Positions 2,828 through 62,636 of a stretch of DNA of 64,000 nt are shown piece by piece. The stretch is taken from positions 3,207,560 to 3,271,559 of the forward strand of contig OZ020525.1 in the NCBI GenBank assembly GCA_963971425.1. The letters are read 5' to 3'. The notes beneath the pieces were generated by a model. That model was not told the DNA's origin, did no database searches, and was given only the letters and a program-made list of their open reading frames with translations. This stretch comes from Bryoerythrophyllum caledonicum. Its lineage: Eukaryota > Streptophyta > Bryopsida > Pottiales > Pottiaceae. Position 1 is the first letter of the stretch. The number at the start of each line of letters is the position of its first letter. Both the position numbers and the translations under genes were made by a program.

Positions 2828-3372
2828 TTAACACAAGTAACAAGTGCTTCCAAAAATCCTTCAAAGCCATATTATAATGGTGAAGGTTTTCTAGATGGGA
2901 AGAAGAACAACCATATCCCATAAAATCTCTGATTATTTTTCACCAAAAACACTTCAAGAATCTCATATTGGTGCAAAGAGTTGAAATAAACAAGAAGTTT
3001 CGTGATTCTATCCCAACCATAAGATCTTACTCTCTACTAAAAGCATGTGCTCACATATTTTCAGAGCATTTATCTAAAGAGATGAGAAGATTTTTGTGCT
3101 TGAAGTGAAGATAAAGAACTTCTTTCTTCCTATACTCCCAATTGTTTGTCACATTTTGCGTTGTAAAAGTTCAAAAAATTTAGACCAATATGATGTACAT
3201 GACGTTAGTTCCATGTAAAATAATTTTTGGAGGAAGAAAGAAGTGAAGCATTTTCAGAACAATTGTGCTAGAAACGAACGTTTAAAACTTGCCAAAATAT
3301 AACTAGTTTTTAATGAACTAATTTCTATATAAATTGAAATTAACTATTTAACATGCTCATGACACTTTTTAA

Positions 3373-4307
3373 CTCCTAAAGGCCCAAGACTCCCCTCGGG
3401 GGAGTCTTGAAGGTTTGAGCAAGTTCTTATGGTATCAATTTGTATCATTCCTTTTTGGAATTTCTAGTGTAGATGGACATTGCTAAAAGCTTTTTGTGAG
3501 TCCAACATTTCCCTAAATCCAACATCCTATGCAAAAGTTATAGGGTTTTGAATTTCAAACGGGTAGAGCGAGCACATCGGGCACCTCAAAAACGTTTGCT
3601 AGAACACTCTACTGAATGTGAGATTTTCAATACTAAAAGATAGTATTATTTCCTTTCACATTGTCAACAAAAATCTCTTGTCTTAGTAGAAAATAGCATA
3701 ATAATCTAAGTCAAAAAATTTTACGCATTGTCACACTTTGTCAGGCAAGGTACAAAAAATCTTCTTCCTTTCCAGATAAAACTTGGAGATCTTCATTTTT
3801 ATTATTATTTTTCCATAGCATTATGTGGTGTAAACCTTTTCATTGACCATTTGGATTCTCATTCTATAACATAATAACTTCACAAAAATAAAACGTGAAT
3901 TGTCAATTTTTGAACCTCCACTCCTTGCACATATGTTTTGAATACACCACACCCCTTCTCTACCTCTAAAAATTGGTGTACAAGGAATTAACATCATGAG
4001 TAACATGATGGTAATGCTTTAAGACCTTGTGTAGTGCAAAAATTTGACACCAAGTGAGGTCAAAGTCTGCTGATCCACTCAATGCAGGGAAGAAAAAGAA
4101 CTGATTTCTCTAATTCAAACATTGTAATCTTTCCATCCGTGCGGTCAAAGTTTATTAAATTTTGTGAGGATGTTAAAAAATAAGTCTTAGTTTAGATCCT
4201 ACGGTTAGATGTTGAAATAAAAGGTTTTGATTACCTCAATACTCATTGAACTAGGACGAGGAGTTTCAAAGTGTTTTTGTTGTGAAAATGCCTTGGGCCT
4301 TTAGGGG
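3373..4307. mobile_element. TTAA-flanked element, family 1, second insertion, copy A
   Basis: TTAA at 3,369-3,372 and 4,308-4,311 bound a 935-bp element. The left end is CTCCTAAAGGCCCAAG and the right end is CTTGGGCCTTTAGGGG, inverted repeats of about 16 bp. A stem CAAGACTCCCC / GGGGAGTCTTG (3,385-3,409) lies next to the left end. It has no coding capacity. The TTAA duplication and CCC-type ends match piggyBac-like structure; Sola3 also uses TTAA but has different termini. Confidence 0.78.
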
Positions 4308-4311
4308 TTAA

Positions 4312-4770
4312 AGTATGAAAAAAAAAAATATTAAAAAAATGATCTTTTATTTTTATGAACAAGTTGAAAGTTTCTTTTTGCACCTTGTCCAACAAGGTAA
4401 GAAAACTTTGCCTCCCCTTAGAGTGAAACTTTTATACTATGAAAGAGTAGTCAATAAGGAACTGAATATTTTAAATTGCAATAAAGCAATCATCCAAGCC
4501 CAATTCTAAATATTTATGAGTCTATTTGAAGTATTTTTATTGTCCTCTATCTCTTAAAATGAATTGTTATTAAGATTTCAACTTTTCTTTTACTTTAGTT
4601 TCTTTCTCTTCATCTAGTTTTTTCATATTCCTTTTACTTTACTTACTTACCTTTCATTTGATGTTTCTTTTTCTTTCCTCCTGTGTACTTAAATTGCATT
4701 CTCATTTTACTTTTACCTTTACTTTAACTTCCTTAAATACTTAAAATGCTCCAATAGCCCATTTTACTCC
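4312..4770. other. T-rich spacer, shared with copy B
   Basis: No gene is visible. From about 4,500 to 4,760 the + strand is pyrimidine-rich with many CTTTTACTTT-like runs. The same stretch is at 16,290-16,690 in copy B. In copy A a deletion of roughly 340 bases joins this spacer directly to the middle of the C2-domain remnant. Confidence 0.5.
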
Positions 4771-5238
4771 TCTGACGAGCTTAGTAAACGAGAAAGTAAC
4801 CTTCTGGAAGGCAAAAATCCCATTTGGAACACAACACCCGAAATCATCTGTGAAAAGGAACATGTATTTTCAAACAAGACCCAACTCAACATTCAGGTTC
4901 TGCATATAGTCTCAAAAGTTGGGGACAACAAACCTTTGGGAATGGCAACATTTGATTTGAAGGATGTACTATTCTCCGGCTTTCCTTCAAAGGTATTCAC
5001 ATACCCACTTCATCATAGTGATGGCAAAGAAAGGGGCGTGGTTCATTTCACCATCACCATGAAGCCTTGTCAAGTACCTCAACATGTGAACCGAGGCGTA
5101 TCATTGTCAAGTACAACAATGGATGAAATGGACGAGCCCGTTTTCACAAGTTTTGTAGATCCTGCTGTCTGTGATGGTATTCATGGATTCGTCAATTGCA
5201 GAGAAATGGAGAATTTACAGATGTATGTCTTTACGTAA
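4771..5238 (+). pseudogene. C2-domain protein remnant, copy A (5' end deleted)
   Basis: The open frame encodes a C2-like beta-sandwich in the style of plant SRC2 proteins: NPIWNTT (the NPxWN motif), then LNIQVLH, GMATFDLKDV and GVVHFTI strands, ending in YVFT and a stop at 5,238. The N-terminal strands present in copy B (16,857-17,040) are missing because about 340 bp are deleted, so no natural start exists; the first methionine is at 4,936, well inside the domain. Identity to copy B is high. C2 domains bind membranes or phospholipids, sometimes with calcium; calcium ligands cannot be judged here. It is very likely non-functional. Confidence 0.72.
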
Positions 5239-11009: not shown

Positions 11010-13165
11010 CGTGGGTTCTGGTAGGCACGCACAGCAGACAGTGGAGGGTTCTCGTAGGCACGCACAGCAGGAACAGCTTAGAAACATCAACCAATGAGAA
11101 TCCTCACAACCAGATGGTTAGCCACGTGTTCAGTGAGGCCTCCGTGAGCCGTCCGATCAGGCGTCATCGACGGGTTTATTCGTCCATACTGAGACAAGGT
11201 ATATTGTTCCATTCGGAGACAAGGTTTACTCTTCCATACGGAGACATACTTAGACATGACTGGACATGGAAGGACATGCATGTCTCTCTGAAGAAATGGA
11301 CGATCTCTATGCCTAGATGGCAAGCAAGTTGGGTCTCAATCAACCCGATTTTTTAATACTAGGATGTATTATGAAGCACTTTCTAGTGATTTCCGTGTTC
11401 ATAGTATACAATAACATTATCCAGGACTTCATTAGCAGATGTTGTAGTCATTTGTTTATACAACCACCATTGAATATTTGTTGAATGTGATAATAAATCA
11501 ATGTAAAATTTATTGTACAAGATATAAATTAACATATTACTGTATTTAGCACATTTGACGACCATGGGGTTTGAATCCAAGACCTTGGGGTTCTAAATTG
11601 AAGCCTCCATGCATGCACAAACCTTGACCGGAGGCTTTTCCAAGCCCCACTCCTCTTTGATGTCTTCCAATGTGACACAATCCGTAGATATATAGTTTCT
11701 CTAGTTTCGGCAATTTCATTAAATATTTTCCCACTTAATTTGGCAAGCAATTTTCTAATTACTAAACCCCGAACTAGAGGTTCACCTATGGTACAAGCAA
11801 TATTACATAGATCTAGCACAACCACTAGAGAATAACTCCCTAATTACTACGCAATCACTAGAGAATAAATATGGAATCACTATACAACAACTATACATGT
11901 GCATGTCATTTATAAAAAGTAATTATGTATTACAAAAATAACGTAAAATACTATAGTAAGAGTGTACAATAAGTGTAAAATAACTAAACAGTGCATTTAT
12001 TAACTTCATCCAATAAAAATGCCGCCACATAAAAATAAGTGGGTCCCAGAAGAGACATTAACTACAAATGAGAAGATGACACACAAGCTTTCACATAGAA
12101 TTACACATCTGTGCGGGAACTAGCTCATCATCCACGTCCATTGCCACCGTAAACTCCATGTCATACCCAAATCCATGTCAATAGCAACCTCATTATCCCC
12201 TGAAGACGATGCAAAATAGAGAATCTTCTTGAAGGATACATTTCAAGTCCAATTGGTAAATTTGGTGGATCTCTAACTTTCTTCCCAGACACGGCCTCAT
12301 CATCCTAAGTACAATTTGATGCAGGTGTACCTTTGACATCATCTACAATTGAAATTTGATGTCAATAAGTGGAGTATTTTAAGATCAGATAATGGTAGAC
12401 ATTAAAGTCAAATATTCCTTCCCTCAAAAGGTGGATTTATTTTCACAAAAACAATTCAAGATCATGTGGTGGATGAAATAATTGTATAAGCATTTCTGGG
12501 CACTGGTACATTACATACGATGAAGGCAAGGGATGATTATCACAAAATTGACGTGAGTTGTGTTTTTGACATGATCGCATCACTTCTGGAGTCAAATATG
12601 GGAGATCATCCACCTCCAATAATGTTGGAGCAAGCAATGGGTAAAACACATCATAGAGGAATGTCTGTGTGGCACAAAAACTAGTCAAACATGTGCAATT
12701 TTTGGAAGGTGTAAAGACAAATATACAATTTTGTGGTTATTTGTGACTATGTGAATGTGTATGAGTTTTTTCTATAAAGGATAACACTTACTACAATATG
12801 TGTTTGAATAATATAAATATGATGGTATTTGCTTTTAACTCATTTTGCAATATGAAAAAACTCCAACATTATCATAGGTATCATGTTTTCTATAGAAGTA
12901 GGTTTTATTCTTAGATTGATTTCCCAACTTTTGGAATATTGGGATGTGGTATCTATTACAGATATATGTATATAATGATATATGAAGAAAAATACATCAA
13001 AACTTTGATATCAAATGATGAAAATATTAAACATATATGTGTATGTATCCACAATGTTTTTATTTTTTTGTGTATAACCTTTTAAATGTGAAGATTACCT
13101 GAAAGATACAAGTGGACTTGTTTGCGTCTCTTTTTTATGCAGAAATTGTGTTCCTGCTTCTTTGA

Positions 13166-14088
13166 CCTCTAAATTACCAAGCCGTTCTCAAACCAAAAAC
13201 ACTTCAAAACTGCTAGTTTCAGTGCAATGAGTAACAAAGAAAAGGAAAACTTATAGTTTTAATCGTGAGATCTCAATAAAGACTTACTCAGTAACATACT
13301 CACAAAATTTCATAAACTTTGAATACACAAAAGATTATAGTGTTTGAAGTACAGAAAAGGGTTCAATTTCTTCTCTGCCTTTTGTGGATCAGCAGACTTT
13401 GACTTCACTTGCTGTCCAATTTTGGCAATACACAAGGTCTAAAGTCATTACCACCATGTTAAGCATAATATTAGATCCTTGTATACAAATTTTTAGTGGT
13501 AAAAAAAAAGGTGAAGCATATTCAATAAAATTGTGCAAGGAATGGACGTTCAAAAATTGTCAATACACGTTTTCATTTTGTGAACTAAAAATGTTTTAGA
13601 ATGAGAATCCGAATGGTCAATGAAAAGGGTTACACTACATAATGCTGTGGGAAAAATAAAAAGTAAAAATATGAAGATCTCAAAGTTTTATGTGGAAAGG
13701 AAGAAGACTTTTTGGGTACCTTGCCCGACAATGTGTGACAATGTTTGACTTGGATTAATATGCTATTTTTCACCAAAGACAAGAGATTTTTGTGGACAAT
13801 GTGAAAGGAAATAATATTATCAGCTAACATAGAAAATCCCACATTCAATAAAGTGTCCTAGCAAAAGTTTTTAGAGTTGCCCAACGTGCCCGCTCTCCCC
13901 ATTTGAACTTCAAAACGCTGTAACTTTTTCATCAAATGTCTGTTTGAGGAAGAAATTGGACTCACACAAAGATTTTAGTAGTTTTCATTTACAGTAAAAA
14001 ATTCAAAAAATAATTTAATAATTTGACACAAGAGGAACCTGCCCAAACCTTCAAGAGTCCCCCGAGGGGACTCTTGGTAGTTTAGGGG
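13166..14088. mobile_element. TTAA-flanked element, family 1 (inverted), copy B
   Basis: This is the orthologue of 1,904-2,827, with left flank TTGA and right flank TTAA (14,089-14,092). It is about 923 bp and non-coding. The hairpin of AAGAGTCCCC with its complement next to the right end is intact. Confidence 0.7.
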
Positions 14089-14572
14089 TTAACACAAGTA
14101 ACAAGTGCTTCCAAAAATCCTTCAAAGCCATATTATAATGGTGAAGGTTTCCTAAATGGGAAGAAGAACAACCATATCCATAAAATCCTTGATTATTTCT
14201 CACCAAAAACACTTCAAGAGTCTCATATTGGTGCAAAGAGTTGAAATAAACAAGAAGTTTCGTGATTCTATCCCAACCATAAGATCTTACTCTCTATTAA
14301 AAGCATGTGCTCACATATTTTCAGAACATTAATCTAAAGAGATTGGAAGATTTTTGTGCTTGAAGTGAAGATAAAGAACTTCTTTCTTCCTATACTATCA
14401 ATTGTTTGTCACATTTTGAGTTATAAAAATTCAAAAATTTAGACCAATATGATGTACATGACGTTATTTCCATGTTCATCAATTTTTGGAAGAAGAAAGA
14501 AGTGAAGCATTTTTAGAACAATTTTGCTACAAACAAACGTTTAAAACTTGCCAAAATATAACTAGTTTTTAA

Positions 14573-15508
14573 CCCCTAAAAGACCAAGTGTCAAAAATGG
14601 GCTTTTTGAAAGTTTGGTCTTGTTCCTATGGTGTCAATTTCCAACATTCCTCTTGGAAAATTTTACTATAGAAAGGCATTACCAAGACCTTAGTGCAAAA
14701 ACAATTTTTTTCCTAAATTAGGCATTTGATGAAAAAGTTATAGGGTTTTGAATTTCAAATGAGGAGAGCGGGCACCTTCAAAAAATTTTGCTAGGACACT
14801 CTATTGAATGTGAGATTTTCAAAACTTGCAAGTAATATTTTTTCCTTTCATGCTGTCAAAAAAAAATTCTTGTCTTTAGTGAAAAATAGCATACCAACCC
14901 AAGTCAAACATTTTCACACATTGTCACTCATTGTTGAGCAAGGTACCAATAACACTTCTTCTTTTCCACATAAAACCTGGATATCTTTATATTTTTCACT
15001 TTTTATTTTTTCCACAACAATATGTGGTGTAAACCTTCTTATTGACCATTCGATTTTCAATCGAAAACATATTTCATTCACAAAAAATTATAGTGTGAAT
15101 TGGCAAATTTTAAACCTCCACTTCTTGCATAGTTGATTCGAATATGCTACACCCGTCCTCTACCTCTAAAAATTAGGGTTAAAGGAATTAACATCATGCT
15201 TAACAAGATGGTGATGAATTTAGACCTTGTGTAGTGAAAAAATTTGACATCAAGTGAAGTCAAAGTCTGCTGATCCACTCAAAGTAGGGAAGAAAATGAA
15301 CCATTTGCTTAACTTGAAACACTATAATCATTCAATCCGTGTGGTCAAAATTTATGAGATTTTGGAAATATACTAATTAAAAGGTAATGATTGAGATCCT
15401 ATGGTCAAAACTAGAAACTAAAGTTTTTGCTTCCTTCTTTGTTCATTGCACTAGAATCCAACAATTTTGAAGTGTTTTTGGTGTAAAAATGTCACGGTAC
15501 CTTAGGGT
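14573..15508. mobile_element. TTAA-flanked element with demonstrable target-site duplication
   Basis: It begins CCCCTAAAAGACC and ends GGTACCTTAGGGT, flanked by TTAA at 14,569-14,572 and 15,509-15,512. Copy A at about 3,302-3,316 has the uninterrupted target CTAGTTTTTAATGAAC with one TTAA. The insertion therefore added 936 bp and duplicated TTAA. It has no coding capacity. Internal blocks are shared with other family-1 elements, for example ACACTCTATTGAATGTG. Confidence 0.9.
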
Positions 15509-15571
15509 TTAATGAACTAATTTCTATATAAATTGAAATCAACTATTTAACATGCTCATGACACTCTTTAA

Positions 15572-16856: not shown

Positions 16857-17500
16857 ATGGTATTGACAGAATTAGATCTCCTTAGAACAAAGACTTTAGA
16901 AGCCACAAACTGCCAAGTAATTATAGAGGCCAACATTCTCTCCGCCCAAGGTCTACAATGGCCACAAATCATGGTTTACAAAAACTGAAAAAATTATCAA
17001 CCATGAGGCCATATGCACAAGCATGGATCTCCTCTGACGAGCTTCAAAAAGGAGAAAGTAACCTTCTGGAAGGCAAAAATCCCATTTGGAACACAACACT
17101 CGAAATCATCTGTGAGAAGGAACATGTTTTTTCAAACAAGACCCAACTCAACACTCAAGTTCTGCATAGAATCTCAAAAGTTGGGGACGACAAACCGTTG
17201 GGAATGGCTACATTTGATTTGAAGGATGTACAATTCTCCGGCGTTCCTTCAAAGGTATTCACATACCCACTTCACCAATGTGATGGCAAAGAAAGGGGCG
17301 TGGTTCATTTCACCATCACCATCAAGCCTTGTCAAGTACCACAATTTGTGAACCAAGACGTATCATTGTCAAGTACAACAATGGATGAAATGAACGAGCC
17401 CGTTTTCACAAGTTTTGTAGATCCTGATGTCCATGATGGTATTCATGGATTCGTCAGTTGCAGAAAAATGGCAAATTTACAGATGTATGTCTTTGCGTAA
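16857..17500 (+). pseudogene. C2-domain protein, copy B (frameshifted near the N terminus)
   Basis: Two frames together give a plant SRC2-like C2 domain. The first frame (ATG at 16,857) encodes QVIIEANILSAQGLQ, the first strand, then runs into a stop. The second (ATG at 16,958) continues with KKLSTMRPYAQAWISS, NPIWNTT, LNTQVLHRIS, GMATFDLKDV and GVVHFTI to a stop at 17,500. At the switch, GGTCTACAA (16,950) and GGTTTACAA (16,973) are 23 bp apart, and both read GLQ in their own frames. A small non-triplet duplication may thus have broken the frame. If translated, the 180-aa product from 16,958 lacks strand 1. A C-terminal extension of about 55 residues is unlike the domain. Confidence 0.68.
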
Positions 17501-34834: not shown

Positions 34835-37800
34835 ATGCCCATTTCTACGGAAGGTTTATCAAAATGTGTTCTGGATGGAGAAGAAGAGTGCATTTATTTG
34901 GGAGAAAATTCTCCATGGAAGGAAGGAGAAGTACAGCAATCATATGATTCTCCTCCTTTGAGTGACGATGTTACTATCCCACGTTCATCCAAAGGCTACG
35001 TACGTCGTAGTCGTGATGAAATAATAGAAGCATTGAGAGATAAGGTGCAAGTTCCAAATGCAAGAGCATTTGATAGGAAAGATTTGAAATGGGAAGTCGT
35101 GCAAAACAATGGTGGTGGGCAAAAAATTGACACTTTTGAAGCCATTATACCCTGGAACAGATTGAGGGACTTTGTAGAGGGTGAAAGTACAAACCGTGAT
35201 TTTCCATGTACATTCCTAGAGGCGTCTCTAAAGTGTGTACAAAAGGTTGGAGAAGGTGAAAAACCCCAAGCTAACAGTGCCGTTCAAAAGATTAGGTGAG
35301 TGTAATTTTATTGATTCTTGTTGATATTTGTAAGGTTTGAAACTTGGGTCGACTTACAAAACACCCAGGCTACACCCACCGTTAGGTTCGTTCTAGGGGA
35401 TGGTCTGGCGTCTAGACTTAGGTAGTTGACTCCAATTCCACTAATATATGTGTCAATTGTTGTTTGCTTTAAGGTTTTGAAGGTAAAAGTGTATCTATAA
35501 CCTACACTCTTAAGGATTTTTACTTATTATTCTTATACCCACAAGCATGTGCAATTATGACGTGAGCCTTGCTCATTGTCATTATTCTGTGAAGTGTCCA
35601 TCGACTTCTAACCTATACCCTCATGGGTAAATGGATTCTATCCATTTGGTACTCATTGCCAGTTCCTTAATTAATCCAAGTTAATAAATCACAATCTAAC
35701 CTCTAGCAATAAGCTCCAAGCTTCCTTATATCTTCACTTTATGCTTCCCATTATCACACCTTCAAACCACAAGTTAAAGCACAAACAACACACAAGGAAT
35801 AATTAACACTATTCTTTAAGTTTCAAAGTATTAAGTCTAATTCTTGTCTCAATTAACTAGATGCACTATTATTTCTTTAACTAGACTTCCTATACTTTGA
35901 ATATTTCTTTATATCAAAATTTTATTCCTTTGTTTAATTCTAACTTATTTACTAGACTATTATCCTTCGTATACTATTACAATTTCTAAGGATATTCTTG
36001 TAATATAAATCTTAATCAATTCCACTTCTTAGCTAGTCTTATAGATTAACTTTAAACACCATTAGACTTGATCTAAAATTTATAATTTAATTACTAGACT
36101 CACAAGTCAATGTAATTTCCACATTATGTGACCAACTCAACCATGTGTTGATCAAACATTAATAATCAAAATTATTAATTCTCAAATTAATAATTAATTC
36201 GTAATTGAAACTTCAATTCTCATGAATTCCAATTCCAATGATTCTGAATCACAAACTTCAAACAATCATTAGCTCATCACATACATAATGCATTTATTAT
36301 TGAAATTAATTATATGCAATTTAGAATTTATTTTATTTCCGATTGCAATTAATTTTACTTCAATTCTATGCATCAATGATTCAATTGTCTTGCATATTTT
36401 TTATTTATTTATTTATTTAATTTTATTTTTATATTTTTTACAATTTGTTCACAAATTGGTACTGTAGATATTCAATTTCTACTCTAACCAATTTCACTTC
36501 CAAAATTCACCAATTTAATTTATTTATTATAAATTCATTTCTAGTGAATTTTGTAATCTCATTACAATTCTCCTTCACATTTAACTTCCACAATTCATAA
36601 TTTTGAATATAATTCTTTACTTAATGTGTCTTATTACACATGAACAAATTTCACACAACAATTGCAATTATGTAGCTAACAACTCGTAGACTTACACATA
36701 ATTTAACAAATAAATATATTTCAAACAAATTTCTTACAAATCACATGTAAGAATTCTTTACCAGCTTCAATCCAAGCTAGGACTCACATAATTTTCTTCA
36801 AATGTGGTGTGATCATCATCACTTCCTATTCACTTATACTATCTTAATTATGAAAAGGTACCACTTTTCCTAATGACTTTTCCTATCACCTCTTTTAGTT
36901 TAATTTCAAAATCTTTTCATATCATTAGGAGTTATGTCCCTTCTTCGTACCTTTCTAATTCTCTTTTCTATTTATTTTAGTAATTTCTATTTTTTTTTTA
37001 AATTTTACTTCTACTTTTACTTTTACTTTATTCTTTTGAAGTTGTTTTTATAGCTTTTGAGCTCTAATTTTTTGAAATTTCACAACTTTATCATTTTGGC
37101 TCTACAATATTCATTCAAACTTAGCAACCGTTGTTGTCTCAATATTTTTGGTTTCTTTTCTAGTCTATGTATAAGATTCTTACTTTTATGTATTTGTTTT
37201 TTTTAAATGAATAGATTCCAATGTGAATTTGGACCTGAAGACAAAATACACAAGATGAAGGACGATGTTGAAAAGATCTTTGCTGGACACTTACAGAAGA
37301 AATTATCTACAAACCAAAAGATTGCGGCAAAGAGAGTAGCAAAGCAGGTTGCAAAAGCGACAAAAGATAGTGTTAAGGCTTCAAAGGTTGCACAGAATAT
37401 GACATTTTTTGAAGAAGCATTTGAAGTTGAAGCGCCTCCTATTGTCCCCCCATCTCCACCAAAACCATCTATACGTGCACGGAGAGCTTCAAAAGTTCAA
37501 GCTGGATTATCCAAGAAGAGAGGTTGTCTTTGTAAGTTTGACGCTAAACAATTGTATTTGGATACTACTTTATGTGCTATCCAATTTCATTGTTTCGATC
37601 ACATCAACAAACAATCAGAACCTTGCCATGGAAGTTCGTTTGCAGGTTTTAGACATTCAGTCGGTGCTAGATTGTCAGAAAGCACAAAGATATGGATTTG
37701 TAATTGTTTGGGTCAAGGGTTGACTCCTTCTCAGATAATGGCAAAGCATAAACAAGAGGTTTTAGATGCGGCTATGAAAGGTGAAAAATGTACACGAGAT

Positions 37801-39699
37801 ACGTTCATCATGCCAGATGATGTTTATAATATTGCAAAGAAAAGAGCATATGAATTATGGCAGATGCATGTGAAGGATGAACAAAGTGTTCGTATATGGG
37901 TTGAAGGAAATCCGGATATGGTCTCCTATTATCAAGAATTTGGTATTCCTCAAATGAATGAAATTCCAAAAACTGAAGAGGAAGCTCCTTTTTGTCTTGG
38001 AATACAAACTCCATGGCAACAAACCATGATGCTTCAACATGGTCATAATAGAGCCCTATCTATGGACTCTACATTTGGAACTAACGAGCCACGAGTAAGT
38101 GTCTTGCTTTTAGATATTTAGATTGTATAATTATAATTCTATTTCCTTTCATTATTATGGATTGATTGTTTATGTTTTTATTGATCCAGTATCCATTATA
38201 CACTATCCTCGCATTTGATGAATGGCAAAATGGTATTCCCGTCGCATTCATTGTTGTTGGAAAAGCGAAAGAGAAAGATATTACTCCGTGGCTTACAGAA
38301 CTTGATGCCCGTGCAAAAACTGTAAAACCGGATTGGAAGCCAAAGGCATTTGTTGTTGATAATGCCAAAGCAGAAATAAATGCTATCAAGTAAGTTTGTT
38401 ATAAAGTTATGCTCATTGATATTTTACTTGTTAATTTCTTTCTAAACTTTTGATAAACTCTATAACTGATTAAAGAAATGGTTGTGATTTTGTAGGAAAG
38501 TGTGGCCAGATATATCTATTTTGCTTTATTTATGGCATGTGAGGAAGGCCTGGAATGAAAATGCCATACGAAATATTCAAGATCCATTGCTACGGGCACA
38601 AGTTTTGAATGCCGTTGCAGGCATTATGTATTCATCAGATTTAAATCAAAGAGAAGCTGCTGTCAAGGCTGCAGAAGTGAAGATTAAAGAGTTCTCACAG
38701 TTGTATCCAGATGCTAAAGATTTTATAGAGTATTTTGAAGCTAATTGGATGGGAAAGACTTCTATGTGGGTGACTGGAAACAGAAATTTTCCACATTGTG
38801 GACATGATACAAACGCTGCTGTGGAATCGTACCATTGCAATTTAAAATCTATTCTTGCAATCACAAGAAATCGGCTTCTAGGACGGCGAATGGACTGGTT
38901 AATATACAATCTTGTCAATGATGTATTAAACCACTACTGGTATGGTGTCCAATGTAAAATCTATGGATTTACAAAAAACAGAAAAATGGAGGGTATAGTT
39001 GCTAGTACTGTCTTACGAGCTCGTGAGATTCCGAATGACTATGTCTCTATTTTTCCTAGTGGCAAAGACATTGTGCTAGTGATGTCCATGACATCATATC
39101 CACATGTGTGGACAGTGACGGCACCCAACTCTGATTGGGCGCAATGCGATTGTCCTCAAGGCGTACGTGGCTATATTTGCAAACATGTCATAAAGGCTAT
39201 AAAGATGATCCATCCGTGTGTCGAGGATGCTATGATTATCAAGCAGACGGGAACTTTATGTGGCACTATAGAGGGGGGATATGACACATCACAAATTGAT
39301 GCTTTCCAGAAAGGTAAATTGGTCCAACAGAGTGATGATTGTGATGTGTTGGGAGACAATTGTCAGGTTGGGAATACATCCGTAAATCATGCATCTAGAC
39401 AACCTCATATCTTGACTACACATGAGAAGCTTATTCAGGAGGCAAGAAAAATCCGGAGTGAGATTGAAAGTATGGTCATGGAAGACAGTGACATTGCAAT
39501 GACTGCAATAGCCCATCTTGCCGTTGTGCGAGGAAAATTGATCGATCGTCAAGCCTTAGATTCTACAGGTCTCTTACATCCAGCATCACAATCTTCTTTT
39601 CCCCTTGGCGAATGTGATAATCGAACACAACGCCAAAAGAGCTTCTTGGAGGGATCATCTAAGAGAGGGGATAAAAAACGAGCGCGTATTGAACAATGA
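34835..39699 (+). CDS. MULE-type transposase with SWIM zinc finger (4 exons)
   Basis: Exons are 34835-35295, 37215-38094, 38190-38389 and 38496-39699; intron phases 2, 0 and 2 agree, and the joined protein is about 914 aa. DDE candidates: Asp in MDSTFGTN, Asp in FVVDNAKAEI, and Glu in AAVESYHCN. A C-terminal SWIM finger CDCPQGVRGYICKHV follows. This is the organisation of Mutator-like transposases and ZSWIM-type relatives, which bind element ends and catalyse cut-and-paste movement in the nucleus. The frame is open upstream to an AG at 34,800, so a further 5' exon may exist; I used the first in-frame ATG. Intron 1 is 1.9 kb and AT-rich. No flanking terminal repeats are visible, so it may be an immobile or domesticated gene; the reading frame is intact. 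Confidence 0.85.
35296..37214 (+). other. Long AT-rich intron 1 of the transposase gene
   Basis: Donor AG|GTGAGT at 35,296 and acceptor ATAG at 37,214. The two other introns are about 100 bp. The + strand is C/T-rich and G-poor over most of its length, unlike the exons. No ORF or recognisable element lies inside, though its size and base bias suggest an insertion. Confidence 0.6.
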
Positions 39700-40650: not shown

Positions 40651-40814
40651 TATATGAATATTTGACACTATATATATATTGTATAGATTTGTTATTTGAA
40701 ATGCAAACTTTATATGTTAAAATCTTTAAACACAGAATGAAAAATGAAATCATAGGTGACAACCCTGCTACATAAATATGTTGTCCATTAAAATTAGACA
40801 ATGATAACTCTTAA

Positions 40815-42559
40815 CCCCTAAACATCCCTGATGTCGAAAAATGACATTCTGGATGAGCTCAGGGAAGTTCAAATGGCTGCCATTTTTTCATCCAAAATCT
40901 GTTTCATTCGTTTGTTTTTGGAAGTTACTGTAGACCGGGTGTAGTTTACTATGGAGTTATTTCCTTTACCCCAAGCATTACTGTGATTTTTGTAGGAAGG
41001 TTTTAGATGTAGGGGGTTTTTGTTTTGAAGCAATTTTTGGTGAAAATTATGGCAGCCATTTTGAGTTGGGGCAGTAGGGATTATTGCATAGATGAGGAAA
41101 GAAATTATGCTGCCCTTGGTGATTCAGTTCAAGAAAAATGAGTTTTTAGAAAGATAAGTAAATAGAGCTACTACTTACTATGACAGGGTGGTTGGACAAC
41201 CTCCAAAACAGGCTCCCTCATCAAATAGGGCAGATCTCAAGACAAGGAGGGGGAACTCCATCGTAACTCACACTTTTCACAACGGAGATAGGGATTTTTT
41301 TCGCAAGTAAGTAGAAATTCTTACATTTATTTCTTATTCCTACTTTTCATCTTATTTTCTGTTGAATACTTCTCATGTTTACTTGAATTTTCCTTGAATT
41401 TTATAGTATGATTTTTGGACTTGAGGGTCTGGTTTGGGTTGATTCCAGGGACTGAGAGCAAACTTGCTTTTTGTTCTGGACTCCACGGCCTCATTTTTGT
41501 TTGTGACTCCAGGGCCTTATTTTTTTTTGTGACTCCAGGGAGGGAGCTCTCGTCCCAGCAAAATCCGAAGCAGTTGGAAGGATAGGGTTTACCTAGCAAC
41601 AGTCGTTGTCGAGGATGGGTATGGAGTCATCTTGGGCGGTCGTTGCCGAAGACGGGTATGGAATTACCCTAGGCGGGATCAGGTGTGCGCCAGGTATACA
41701 GGTGTGCGCCTTGGTTGGCACACCACTAACGAGGAAGGCGAAACATACATCTGGCAAGGTCGATGCCTTTGTTGACAGTTTCAATGGCAAGGGCCTCTAG
41801 CAATAGTCGGGTTGGCCAGGTCGGCGTCCCAGGGATAAAGGTTGTCATGCCATCACCTTTGCCATTTTTTTTGTTTTTATAATAAGGAGAAGCCAACATA
41901 AGGAGGGAATTTATAACGTGACCCTATCATATATCCCCAATTTCTAGGAAGCTCATTGTAAGGACTCAGGCTATTTATTAGTTAAGTACAAGGACCGTTA
42001 TCTTATATTTATGGTGATTGTCATAAGATTGTGGCCTTGCACATACCAATCTCTGACAAAATTTTCGTCTTTTCCTTAGTGAAGGTGCCCATGTTTCTTT
42101 CTTTTTGTCAAACAGCCTACCCAAAGTTGGAAGGGCAACCTCCAAATAGTAGGAGAAAATATGACATATGTGTATTGTAAGGCGGATTGTGAACACATGA
42201 AACTTAAAAATAAATATCTGTTTTTGGAATTATCTTCCAAACCGACAAAGTCACGTTTATGTAGTTGACCATTTTTGGAAGTGGATTTTCAATGAAGGTG
42301 TATTTTCTCAAAAACTCCAAAAAGTAGGGTCTGCCCGACTAATTTCAGCCCCCAAACGTAACACTTTTTGGAGTGGATGGAAGTCCAAATCATGTCCAAA
42401 GTACACAAGAATTGGCTCACTTATTATTTGGCTATGTTTGAAGAGGATCTTACGGTTACTTTTTGAATATTTTTCTCTCATTGAGCTCTACATGGAATTT
42501 AATTTTGAGGGATTTTTTACTGTATTTCAGCGTTTCGACCCTCCAAGGACGTTTAGGGG
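40815..42559. mobile_element. TTAA-flanked element, family 3 (1,745 bp)
   Basis: TTAA at 40,811-40,814 and 42,560-42,563 bound ends CCCCTAAACATCCCTGATG and, on the other strand, CCCCTAAACGTCCTTGGAGG. The interior contains a GC-richer patch (41,440-41,880) with near-duplicate blocks GAGGATGGGTATGGA / GAAGACGGGTATGGA about 38 bp apart and a short ORF (41,606-41,800, begins SRMGMESSWAV) that I cannot identify; it may be captured host sequence. No transposase is present. Confidence 0.65.
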
Positions 42560-42563
42560 TTAA

Positions 42564-44929: not shown

Positions 44930-45688
44930 AATTGTCAAGTGTGGGCATGTCCGACAACTCCAAAAACGTTTGCTAGGACACTCTAGTGAATTTGAGATTT
45001 CCAATACTAGCAAGTAAATTATTTCCTTTCATGTTGTCAAAAAACATTTCTTGTCTTTAGTGACAAAATGCATTTTATCCTAAGTCAAAGATTTTCTCAC
45101 GTTACCACACATTGTAGGGCAAGGAATAAAAAAAACTTCTTTTCCACAGAAATCTTTGAGATCTTCATTTTTTTCACTTTTAATTATTTCTATTACAAGA
45201 CGTGGTGTAAACCTTCTTATTGACCATTCGGATTATCATTCTAAAACATATTTTATGTCCAAATAATTAAAACGTGAAATTGCACTTTTTGAACCTCAAC
45301 TCCTTGCACACTTGTTTTGAATATGCTACACCCCTTTCTTTACCTCTAAAAATTGGTGTAAAAGGAGTTAATATCATGATCAACATGATGGTGTAAAATT
45401 TTGACTATGTGTAGTGCAAAAGTTTGATATCAAGTGAAGTCAAAGTCTATTGATCCACTCAATAGAGGGATGAAAATGAACCATTTTTTCTACTTCACAC
45501 ACTATTATCTTTCAATCCATGTGGTCGAAGTTGATGAAATCTTGAAAGTATGTTTTTTTATTAAGTTTTAAATGATATCCTACAGTTAAAACTAGAAATA
45601 AGATTTCTTATTTCCTTCCTTACTCATTGCACTAAAATTGACAGTTCTGAAGTGTTTTTAGTGTGAAATTGTCAAGGATATTTACGGG
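44930..45688. mobile_element. TTAA element, family 1, 5'-truncated
   Basis: The right end is GATATTTACGGG followed by TTAA (45,689-45,692). Internal blocks such as GAAGTCAAAGTCTATTGATC and CAATACTAGCAAGTAA match other family-1 copies. The latter block is the empty target of the small element nested in copy C at 61,544. The left end is missing. Confidence 0.55.
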
Positions 45689-52564: not shown

Positions 52565-52568
52565 TTAA

Positions 52569-53702
52569 CCCGTAAAGGAACCAAGTGTCAAAAATATTTA
52601 TTGTAAAAGGGCAATACTAAAACCTCCACGGAGGAACAAATTTTTCCTAAAACCAACATTTAATGAAAAAGAAATTGGGTTTTGAATTCCAAATGGGGAA
52701 AGCGGGCATGTCGGGCATCTCCAAAAACTTTTGCTAAGACACTCTATTGAATGTGAGACTTTCAATACCCTACACGTTGGTCGGGGCCATACATAGTTCA
52801 TTCAAAATGGAGGATGTCTAAATCTTTTTTGCAAAATATAAAATATTTGTCTAAGGTGATACCCATGTAATACCAAAGTAAAACCCTTGTAATATCTAGG
52901 CAATACTCATGTAATGCCTAGATGATACCCTTTATGTCCAAACCACTGTGTTAAAAATAAATAATTGCTTTGTACAGGTTCCAAGGGGTGTCCGAGCTAG
53001 ACCAATGTATACGGTACTTGGAAGTAATATATTTCCATTCATGTTGTGGAAGATTTTCTTGTCTTTAGTGAAACATAGCATATTAACCCAAGTCAAATAT
53101 TTTCACACATTATTACACGTTGTCGGACTAGGTACCCAAAAACCTTCTTTCTTTCTACATAAAACTAAGAGACCTTTGTATTTTTGACTTCTTATTTTTT
53201 CCACAATAAAATGTGGTGTAAACCTTTTTACTAACCGTTTGGATTATCAATCTATAACATATTAAATTCACAAAAAATTAAAATTTGAATTGGCAGTTTT
53301 TGAACCTGCACTCCTTGCACAATTGTTTTGAATATGCTACACCCCTCGTCTACCTCTAAAAATTGGAATGTAAAGAACCAACACGATGCTTAACAAGATG
53401 GTAGTGGCTTTAAACCTTGTATAGTGCTCAAATTGGACACCAAGTGAAGTCAAAGTTTGTTGATCCACTCAAAATAGGGAAGGAAATGAACCATTTGCTT
53501 GCCATTCAAACAGTATAATCTTTGAATCCATGCGGTCAAAGTTTATAAAATTTTGTGAGTATGTTACTTGATAAGACTTCCAAATTGAGATCCTACGGTC
53601 AAAACTAGAAATAAAAAGCTTTGTTTCCTCCTATATTCATTGCACTAGAATCCAACAATTTTGAAATGTTTTTAGTGTGAAATTGTCACGGTACCTTAGA
53701 GG
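52569..53702. mobile_element. TTAA-flanked element, family 1, with nested insertion
   Basis: TTAA at 52,565-52,568 and 53,703-53,706 bound ends CCCGTAAAGGAACCAAG and GGTACCTTAGAGG. It is 1,134 bp because a relative of the TA-flanked short element (about 52,768-53,013, shared AATATAAAATATTTGTCTAA block) is inserted into it. Non-coding. Confidence 0.7.
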
Positions 53703-53706
53703 TTAA

Positions 53707-57931: not shown

Positions 57932-58297
57932 TCGTAGGTGAACCTCTAGTTCGGCACCTCCATTCCGAATTATTAATTAAAGTGAGTAAAGGCCATTCAA
58001 CATCCAAAATAGAAATAAATTATTTTTTGGCAAGAAATAAGATATTACTGTATTTAGCACATTTCACGACCGTGGGGTTTGAATCCAAGACCTTGGGGTT
58101 CTAAATCAAAGCCTCCATGCATGCACAACCTTGAAGGGAGGCTTTTCCAAGCCCCACTCCCCTTTGATGTCTTCCAATGTGACAAAATCTGTAGATATAT
58201 AGTTTCTCTAGTTTTGGCAATTCAATAAATATTTTCCCACTTAATTCGGCAAGCATTTTTCTAATTAATAAACCCCGAACTAGAGGTTCATCAACGG
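57932..58297. mobile_element. TA-flanked inverted-repeat element (366 bp)
   Basis: TA at 57,930-57,931 and 58,298-58,299 bound ends TCGTAGGTGAACCTCTAGTT and, on the other strand, CCGTTGATGAACCTCTAGTT. The interior (for example GGGGTTTGAATCCAAGACCT) is related to the nested element at 61,544-61,890. Copy B keeps only the right part (about 11,529-11,791). Confidence 0.68.
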
Positions 58298-59879: not shown

Positions 59880-60812
59880 CCCCTAAATTACCAAGCCATT
59901 CTCAAACCAAAAACACTTCAAAACTACTAGTTTCAGTGCAATGAGTAAGGAAGAAAAGGAAAACTTATATTTCTAGTTTTAACCGTGAGATCTCATTAAT
60001 GACATACCTAGTAACATACTCACAAAATTTCATAAACTTTGACTACACGGAAGATTAATAGTGTTTGAAGTACAGAACAGAGTTCAACTTCTTCCCTACG
60101 TTTTGTGGATTAGCAGATTTGACTTCACTTGTTGTCCAATTTTTGCACTACACAAGGTCTAAATTCATTACCACCATGTTACCACCATGTTAAGCATGAT
60201 ATTAGTTCCTTCTATACAGATTTTTAGAGGTAAACAAAAAGGTGAAGCATATTCAATAAAATTGTGCAAGGAGTGGAGGTTCGAAAATTGTCAATTCATG
60301 TTTTATTTTTTTGTGAACTAAATATGTTTTAGAATGAGAATCCAAATAGTCAATGAAAAGGGTTACATTACATAATGCCATGGGGAAAGTAAAAAGTAAA
60401 AATATGAAGATCTCAAAGTTTTATGTGGAAAGGAAGAAGATTTTTTGGATACCTTGCCCGACAATGTGTGACAATGTTTGACTTGGATTAATATGCTATT
60501 TTTCACCAAAGACAAGAGATTTTTGTGGACAATGTGAACGGAAATAATTATATTTGCTACCATTAAAAATCTCACATTCAATAGAGTGTCCTAGCAAAAG
60601 TATTTGGAGTTGCCCGCTCTCCCCATTTGAACTTCAAAATGCTATAACTTTTTCATTGAATGTCCGATTGAGGAAAAAATTGGACTTACACAAAGCTTTT
60701 AGTAATTTCCATTTACAGTAAAAAATTCAAAAAATAACATTGTAATTTGTCACAAGAGGAACCTGCCCAAACCTTCAAGAGTCCCCCGAGGGGACTCTCG
60801 GTAGTTTAGGGG
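59880..60812. mobile_element. TTAA-flanked element, family 1 (inverted), copy C
   Basis: Orthologue of 1,904-2,827. The flanks have decayed to TTGA and TTCA. The terminal hairpin is kept. Confidence 0.68.
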
Positions 60813-61291
60813 TTCACACGAGTAACAATTGCTTCCAAAAATCCTTCAAAGCCATATTATAATGGTAAAGGTTTTCTAGATGGGAAGAAGAACAACCATA
60901 TCCCATAAAATCCCTGATTATTTCTCACCAAAAACACTTCAAGAATCTCATAATTGGTGCAAAGAGTTGAAATAAACAAGAAGTTTCTTAATTCCATCCC
61001 AACCATAAGATCTTACTCTCTACAAGCATGTGCTCACATATTTTCAGAACATTTATCTAAAGAGATTGGAAGATTTTTGTGCTTGAAGATAAAGAACTTA
61101 TTTCTTCCTATACTATCAATTGTTTGTCACATTTTGCGTTATAAAAGTTCAAAAAATTTAAACCAATATGATGCACATGACTTTAGTTCCATGTACAACA
61201 ATTTTTGGAGGAAGAAAGAAGTGAAGCATTTTCAGAACAATTGTGCTAGAAACAAACGTTTAAAACTTGCCAAAATATAACTAGTTTTTAA

Positions 61292-62573
61292 CCCCTAAAA
61301 GACCAGGTGTCAAAAATGGGCTTTTTGAAAGTTTGGTCAGGTTCCTATGGTGTCAATTTCCAACATTCTTCTTTGAAAATTTTACTATAGAAAGGCATTA
61401 CCCAGACCTTAGTGGGAATTTTTTTTTCCTAAATTAGGCATTTGATGAAAAAGTTATAGGGTTTTGAATTTCAAATGGGCACCTCGGGCACCTCCAAATT
61501 TTTTTGCTAGGACACTCTATTGAATGTGAGATTTTCAATACTACCATAGGTCAAGGGCACCTTCGGCACTTGGACGCCGAATATTTAATTAAAGTCAAAA
61601 AAGTGGGTTCGGCTTTCTAAAAGATTTCGGGAGGAGTTCACATATTACTATAATTAGGCTATTTTGATGGGGATTAAACCTAAGACCTCAAGCTCACTTT
61701 GAGCTCTTTTGCACAGACTTCCAAGAATCAAGGCTTTCCAAGCCATAACTCCCCATTGATGTCTTTGATGTCCAAAGATTTTGTATATTAATACTTTCTT
61801 CAATTTCGGCATTTTCACTCAATAATTTCCCAAATAATTTGGCATGCCCCTTTTGAATTAATTATAGCCGAAGGTGCCCTTCACCTACGGTAGCAAGTAA
61901 TATTTTTTCCTTTCATGCTGTCAAAGAAAAAGTTCTTGTTTTTAGTGAAAAATAGCATACCAACCCAAGTCAAACATTTTCACACATTGTCACTCATGGT
62001 CGGGCAAGGTACCAAAAAAACTTCTTCTTTTCCACATAAAACCTAGATATCTTTATAATTTTCACTTTTTATTTTGTCCACAACAATATGTGGTGTAAAC
62101 CTTCTTGTTGACCATTCGGATTTTGAATCTAAAACATATTTCATTCACAAAAAATTAAAGTGTGAATTGGCAAATTTTGAACCTCTACTTCTTACATAGT
62201 TAATTCAAATATGCTACACCCGTCCTCTACCTCTAAAAATTGGTGTAAAGGAATTAACATCATGCTTAACAAAATGGTGATGAATTTAGACCTTGTGTAG
62301 TGCAAAAATTGACACCAAGTGAAGTCAAAGTCTGCTGATCCATTGCATACAGGGAAGAAAATGAACCATTTGCTTGACTTCAAACACTATAATCTTTCAA
62401 TCCGTGCAGTCATAATTTATGAAATTTTGGAAATATATCAACTACAACGTCTTAACTGAGATCCTACAGTCAAAACTAGAAACTAAAGTTTTTGCTTCCT
62501 TCTTTGTTCATTGCACTAGAATCCAACAATTTTGAAGTGTTTTTGGTGTAAAACTGTCACGATACCTTAGGGG
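61292..62573. mobile_element. TTAA-flanked element with nested TA element, copy C
   Basis: TTAA at 61,288-61,291 and 62,574-62,577 flank ends CCCCTAAAAGACC and GATACCTTAGGGG. It sits at exactly the same place as 14,573-15,508 in copy B, and the site is empty in copy A. It is 1,282 bp because of the nested element at 61,544-61,890. Non-coding. Confidence 0.88.
61544..61890. mobile_element. Nested TA-flanked inverted-repeat element (347 bp)
   Basis: The ends are CCATAGGTCAAGGGCACCTT and, on the other strand, CCGTAGGTGAAGGGCACCTT, about 24 bp with two mismatches. TA flanks both sides (61,542-61,543; 61,891-61,892). The unoccupied sequence CAATACTAGCAAGTAA is seen in the family-1 element at 45,003. 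Non-coding. Confidence 0.8.
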
Positions 62574-62636
62574 TTAATGAACTAATTTCTATATAAATTG
62601 AAATCAACTATTTAACATGCTCATGACACTTTTTAA

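Follow-up and report, generated by a model that had tools for sequence, protein, structure and literature searches.

What kind of element is the insert of about 0.94 kb that lies between two TTAA tetranucleotides in this DNA, and is the matching site with a single TTAA in the same window an unoccupied target or a place from which the element has been lost? The window, by which we mean the whole stretch of 64,000 nucleotides analysed here (C14:3207560-3271559 of a 437-Mb genome), holds one locus in three states, called copies A, B and C, and their coordinates are collected with those of the other features in Table 1. As judged from sequence, the insert at B is very probably a MITE-like member of the piggyBac superfamily, short and non-autonomous, in the nuclear genome of a moss, since a TTAA anatomy is combined with termini like those of B on elements that carry a piggyBac transposase.

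Table 1. Position, strand and boundaries of the elements and sites discussed in the text (window positions unless a contig is named).
Feature	Position	Strand	Length	Remarks
Copy A, empty target site	3303..3318	+		Reads CTAGTTTTTAATGAAC; single TTAA at 3310-3313
Copy B, very probable non-autonomous piggyBac-type element with TTAA duplication	14569..15512	+		TTAAs at 14569-14572 and 15509-15512
Copy C, insert of B at paralogous site, nested element inside	61288..62577	+		
Inverted-repeat element of different type, nested in copy C	61543..61892	.	350 bp	TA-like duplication, by eye
Related family copy X1, adjoining the B site	13169..14092	-		Shares about 75% identity with B; right edge TTTAGGGGTTAA; equivalent copies at 1905-2831 and 59881-60778
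Related family copy X2	3369..4311	+		TTAACTCCTAAAGG...CCTTTAGGGGTTAA; equivalents start at 15568 and 62633
Related family copy, partial	44955..45677	+		79% identical to B
Related family copy with additional internal stretch	52565..53706	+		Right edge TCACGGTACCTTAGAGGTTAA
P2 copy	C4:9618410-9628990		10,581 bp	
P2 copy	C3:16507305-16518193		10,889 bp	
P1 copy	C3:17753132-17759686		6,555 bp	Length includes unread bases (N run upstream of transposase)
P1 copy	C9:9718676-9725151		6,476 bp	Length includes unread bases (N run upstream of transposase)

An earlier note on this DNA had taken copy A for the locus of B with one TTAA, and this has been confirmed at the site given in the table. The junctions of copy B read CTAGTTT-TTAACCCCTAAAAGACC...GGTACCTTAGGGTTTAA-TGAAC. 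The inserts of both B and C do stand between two TTAAs as the note had it, but the 1.28 kb that it gave for C includes a foreign element of 350 bp, so that the piggyBac part is about 0.94 kb long. Its description of the ends as CCCCTAA and TTAGGGG likewise needs adjusting: the full GGGG is present in C, whereas the right end of B reads TTAGGGT-TTAA. B and C agree at 92.3% in their inserts and at 92.1% in their flanks, and this near-equality is what would be expected if both descend from one shared insertion. B carries no gene, and the open-frame list of the window shows no frame of at least 150 aa within it. The foreign element nested in C has inverted repeats of its own (CCATAGGTCAAGGGCACC / GGTGCCCTTCACCTACGG), and parts of it reappear at 11632-11793 and 58139-58269.

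A search of the genome with the empty-site stretch yielded ten copies of the locus among the 40 of 272 first-look candidates that were scored, all of them within 2.99-3.27 Mb of C14, six being filled and four empty. Three of the four empty copies (A included) read exactly CTAGTTTTTAATGAAC at the site and the remaining one reads CTTGTTTAAAATGAAC; on the left side all six filled copies have TTAA, and on the right side three have TTAA and three CTAA. An eleventh match (L101) is partial and stops short of the insertion site, and the remaining matches are weaker or shorter. piggyBac is capable of traceless excision, and A and its empty relatives could be sites from which the element vanished without trace, by excision or gene conversion, rather than sites as they stood before insertion. 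Excision at A was first favoured by pairwise distances, which did not set A outside the filled copies, and it is no longer the leading reading because of trees built from the flanks of the ten copies, in which the right flank was used to 735 bp only, as B diverges past about that point. In these trees A and two further empty copies (E2 and E3) are split from every filled copy, with bootstrap values of 83 for the left flank, 97 for the right flank, and 98 and 99 for two combined alignments. The remaining empty copy, E4, shows a weak affinity to filled copies, but a tree uniting all the filled copies is not rejected (AU p = 0.31), and a single insertion is enough. When L101 is tried as outgroup it joins F4, a filled copy, with bootstrap values of 55-63, a position that would root the tree among the filled copies; the root is therefore unsettled, and for lack of a trustworthy one from L101 traceless loss at A is kept as a rival, though we consider it unlikely. 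Gene conversion within the array may also have blurred the locus tree. The simplest course, we infer, is that the element entered this locus a single time, ahead of some of the rounds of segmental duplication, with six filled and four empty copies as the outcome. Insertion alone can explain copy A and the ten-copy tree, excision or conversion being possible and unneeded. Past copies B and A lie similar open frames (16886-17500, with a C2 domain match, and 4693-5238), which seem to be part of the segmental duplication that bears the insertion site, and the region of the duplicated locus also contains plastid psaA/psaB fragments (C14:2993356-3177201).

The preference for TTAA can be followed well beyond this locus. 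The note had spoken of many further family copies, and indeed B matches 12 places in the window besides B and C themselves (4 of these shorter than 200 bp), and matching termini number in the thousands genome-wide. With B as query, the genome yielded a list of 42 matches from the 39 of 11,432 first-look candidates that were scored, a figure that is not a copy number, and 37 of these copies were used for the study of flanks, B and four partial pieces being left out. Among the 37, 34 have TTAA at their left end, 31 have it close to their right end (a lenient count, as TTAA was accepted anywhere within a 26-base stretch) and 29 have it at both; of the eight copies in which one end or both depart from a perfect TTAA, seven do so by one base at an end. 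The 37 copies have 26 distinct 12-base left flanks. Twelve of them share nearly one common flank, which marks them as repeated pieces of a larger unit rather than as separate insertions, and two others (L029 and L030) sit at B's own duplicated locus; when these 14 are set aside, 17 of 23 copies have TTAA at both ends. On a larger scale, the exact terminal 15-mer CCCCTAAAGGACCAA occurs 3,897 times genome-wide (reversed control, 1), and the same 15-mer preceded by TTAA, TTAACCCCTAAAGGACCAA, is found 3,243 times in exact form in the 437-Mb genome against 0 for the reversed control, which excludes chance. Far from most genomic copies lacking TTAA flanks, an outcome that the note had named as fatal to its proposal, 3,243 of 3,897 exact termini (83%) follow a TTAA. 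Copy L054 is flanked by CTAA left and right and may have inserted into CTAA instead of TTAA.

The enzyme was sought with the profile PF13843 (DDE_Tnp_1_7) at a cut-off of 22.4 bits, 116 of 305 first-look candidates being scored. At least 120 matches were obtained in the genome, all above the cut-off and the best at 279 bits, some of these entries being pieces of one copy, and none was obtained in any of 14 control genomes. The three catalytic positions, aligned with 6x67, are occupied by aspartate in all 20 domains examined, and 13 of the 20 domain stretches are free of stops. The 20 domains sort into groups whose mutual likeness is 40-73%, rising to 80-91% for some that are closer. Within the window, tblastn with the 20 domains detected no transposase remnants at E 1e-3, B itself included.

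Two families of coding elements, P1 and P2, could be bounded at both ends, each by two copies that run from TTAA to TTAA in differing flanks. The two P2 copies cease to resemble each other precisely at TTAA, left and right, and the two P1 copies do so at TTAA or at most 5 bases from it. These are the longer copies with shared termini for which the note had proposed to look (6.5 kb for P1, unread bases included, and 10.6-10.9 kb for P2), and the piggyBac transposase that it expected between such termini was found in both. The P1 copy on C3 has an open frame of 813 aa with the three catalytic aspartates and a long N-terminal part; its product matches PF13843 at 2e-81 and the solved piggyBac transposase 6x67/6x68 at 1.4e-28, and a Cys/His-rich tail can be recognized by eye after the domain, the Pfam scan of the frame giving PF13843 only. 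The P2 frame on C4 is open across the domain and meets a stop before a cysteine-rich tail. The P1 copies lie at two unrelated sites and are identical at 99.2% over 3,815 bp, 99.7% over 1,552 bp and 100% over 355 bp, a near-identity which suggests, and does no more than suggest, that P1 moved recently. Inside P1 there is a second TTAA-flanked pair of ends (L080:142-1028; CCCCTAAAGTCGAAA / TTTCGACTTTAGGGG), so that TTAA elements are here nested within one another.

What ties B to these coding elements is the likeness of their ends. Over its terminal 50-70 bp, with CCCCTAAARG on one side and CCTTAGGGG on the other, B is similar to the corresponding ends of the larger elements with the DDD transposase: in one and the same orientation, B and P2 are alike at 95.5% over 67 bp at the 5' end and at 86.3% over 51 bp at the 3' end, and the ends of P1 are also similar (81% over 73 bp and 79% over 38 bp). 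Terminal inverted repeats starting with CCC are present at the ends of C and P2 (CCCCTAAARG / CCCCTAAGG), those of P1 are CCCCTAAAG / CCCCTAAAAG, and the 3' end of B reads ACCC. The core of B, about 830 bp, has a different distribution: in P2 it is present only as a nested family copy (L068:6109-7061), in P1 as a stretch without the ends of the family, and next to other transposases with no constant position or orientation. A derivation of B from P2 by internal deletion was considered and set aside, as the ends match but the core is absent from P2 outside the nested copy.

Sola3 and Kolobok duplicate TTAA too, and the family might belong to one of these superfamilies and be piggyBac-like in its target only; the Sola transposase differs from that of piggyBac. 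A 2022 review of land-plant transposons gives Sola1 for Physcomitrella, an element comparable to ours as a DNA transposon in a moss. However, elements with B-like termini at both ends encode transposases recognized by PF13843, unlike Sola, and the enzyme between the ends is piggyBac in all four bounded elements, which makes membership of Sola3 or Kolobok highly unlikely. The piggyBac interpretation of the note is thus supported by the PF13843 transposase of P1 and P2, whose two termini resemble those of B.

As a piggyBac-type element, B is short and non-coding, has many copies and shares its ends with the coding element P2, as a MITE does. We infer that a transposase of this kind moved B. In the proposed course of the reaction, a larger element would supply the transposase, which would bind the two ends of B, excise the element and join it into a TTAA, the four bases then standing on both sides. 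Animal piggyBac-derived MITEs are short, non-coding and TTAA-flanked, with ends like those of coding elements, and B is like them in each of these respects; it differs in residing in a land plant, in its length of about 0.94 kb, and in a core that its coding partner P2 contains only as a nested copy. With piggyBac of Trichoplusia ni and the superfamily at large, which is familiar chiefly from animals, the moss elements have in common the TTAA target, the termini starting with CCC and a PF13843 domain with three catalytic aspartates, as well as the match of the P1 protein to the solved transposase. They depart from T. ni piggyBac in the long N-terminal part of P1, in the moss host, in the thousands of matching termini and in the size of the bounded elements, which, with the unread bases of P1 counted, are 6.5 and 10.6-10.9 kb long as compared with the 2472 bp given for T. 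ni.

Might a contaminant, instead of the plant, be the source of the piggyBac sequences? Contig C7 carries a LEAFY gene whose DNA-binding part scores 239 bits against PDB chain 4bhk, which we take to be Physcomitrium LEAFY, and at most 170 bits against the other four LEAFY sequences; this closeness to 4bhk supports the land-plant host that the note had supposed. The assembly has two plastid psaA/psaB sets, on C894 and C821 (L085 and L086), whose PsaB proteins differ from each other and are both closest to one set of three PDB entries, presumably Physcomitrium (moss) photosystem I. On sequence likeness, LEAFY and PsaB together place the genome with the mosses. With two different plastid psaB genes in the assembly, the sample may include another moss, and to that extent contamination is conceivable, but both PsaB proteins point to the same trio of entries, transposase matches are spread across the large contigs C1-C4, C6-C12, C14 and C15, and C7 bears both LEAFY and copies of the piggyBac transposase. 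A foreign origin of the piggyBac sequences is therefore scarcely credible.

The note had also held that piggyBac is rarely if ever described in land plants. The 2022 review of land-plant transposons counts six TIR superfamilies (Tc1-Mariner, hAT, Sola, MuDR, PIF-Harbinger and CACTA), with no mention of piggyBac found in its accessible text. On the other side, plant occurrence is stated in passing in animal and ciliate piggyBac papers, PiggyBac is among the superfamilies that a 2024 plant review enumerates in general terms, and in a fern repeat table 1,230 fragments are given as PiggyBac, amounting to 0.00% of the assembly (PMC6890710, PMC10813416, PMC10794571, PMC8086355, PMC10140906 and PMC9033089). 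In the accessible text of PMC10619864 both matches were to 'piggybacking'. No description of piggyBac in a moss was seen among the titles and abstract openings of the matches listed, a provisional result with most subscription papers and Repbase outside its scope. The novelty would provisionally be one of taxonomy and scale, that of a known superfamily in a lineage about which little has been written. The at least 120 transposase matches (some of them pieces of one copy) and the thousands of termini would back the passing plant mentions with bounded coding elements, and would open TTAA targeting, and perhaps clean excision, to study in a native plant host. That mosses have long housed autonomous piggyBac elements of diverse kinds, some of them recently moving and driving thousands of short TTAA elements, is a proposal for which we see about even chances; it draws support from the spread of identities among the 20 domains and from the near-identity of the P1 copies at unrelated sites over the three stretches. 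If it were true, it would mean a native plant system for cut-and-paste insertion, possibly with scarless excision.

Two further features of the window deserve mention. At 37207-38121 and 38488-39699 there are two long open frames, the second with a SWIM zinc-finger match just below the cut-off; the frames may be MULE-like, the second perhaps encoding a MULE-type transposase. Another TTAA-bounded pair of ends (TTAACCCCTAAACATCC ... GGACGTTTAGGGGTTAA) at 40811-42563 possibly delimits another piggyBac-type element, of about 1.75 kb.
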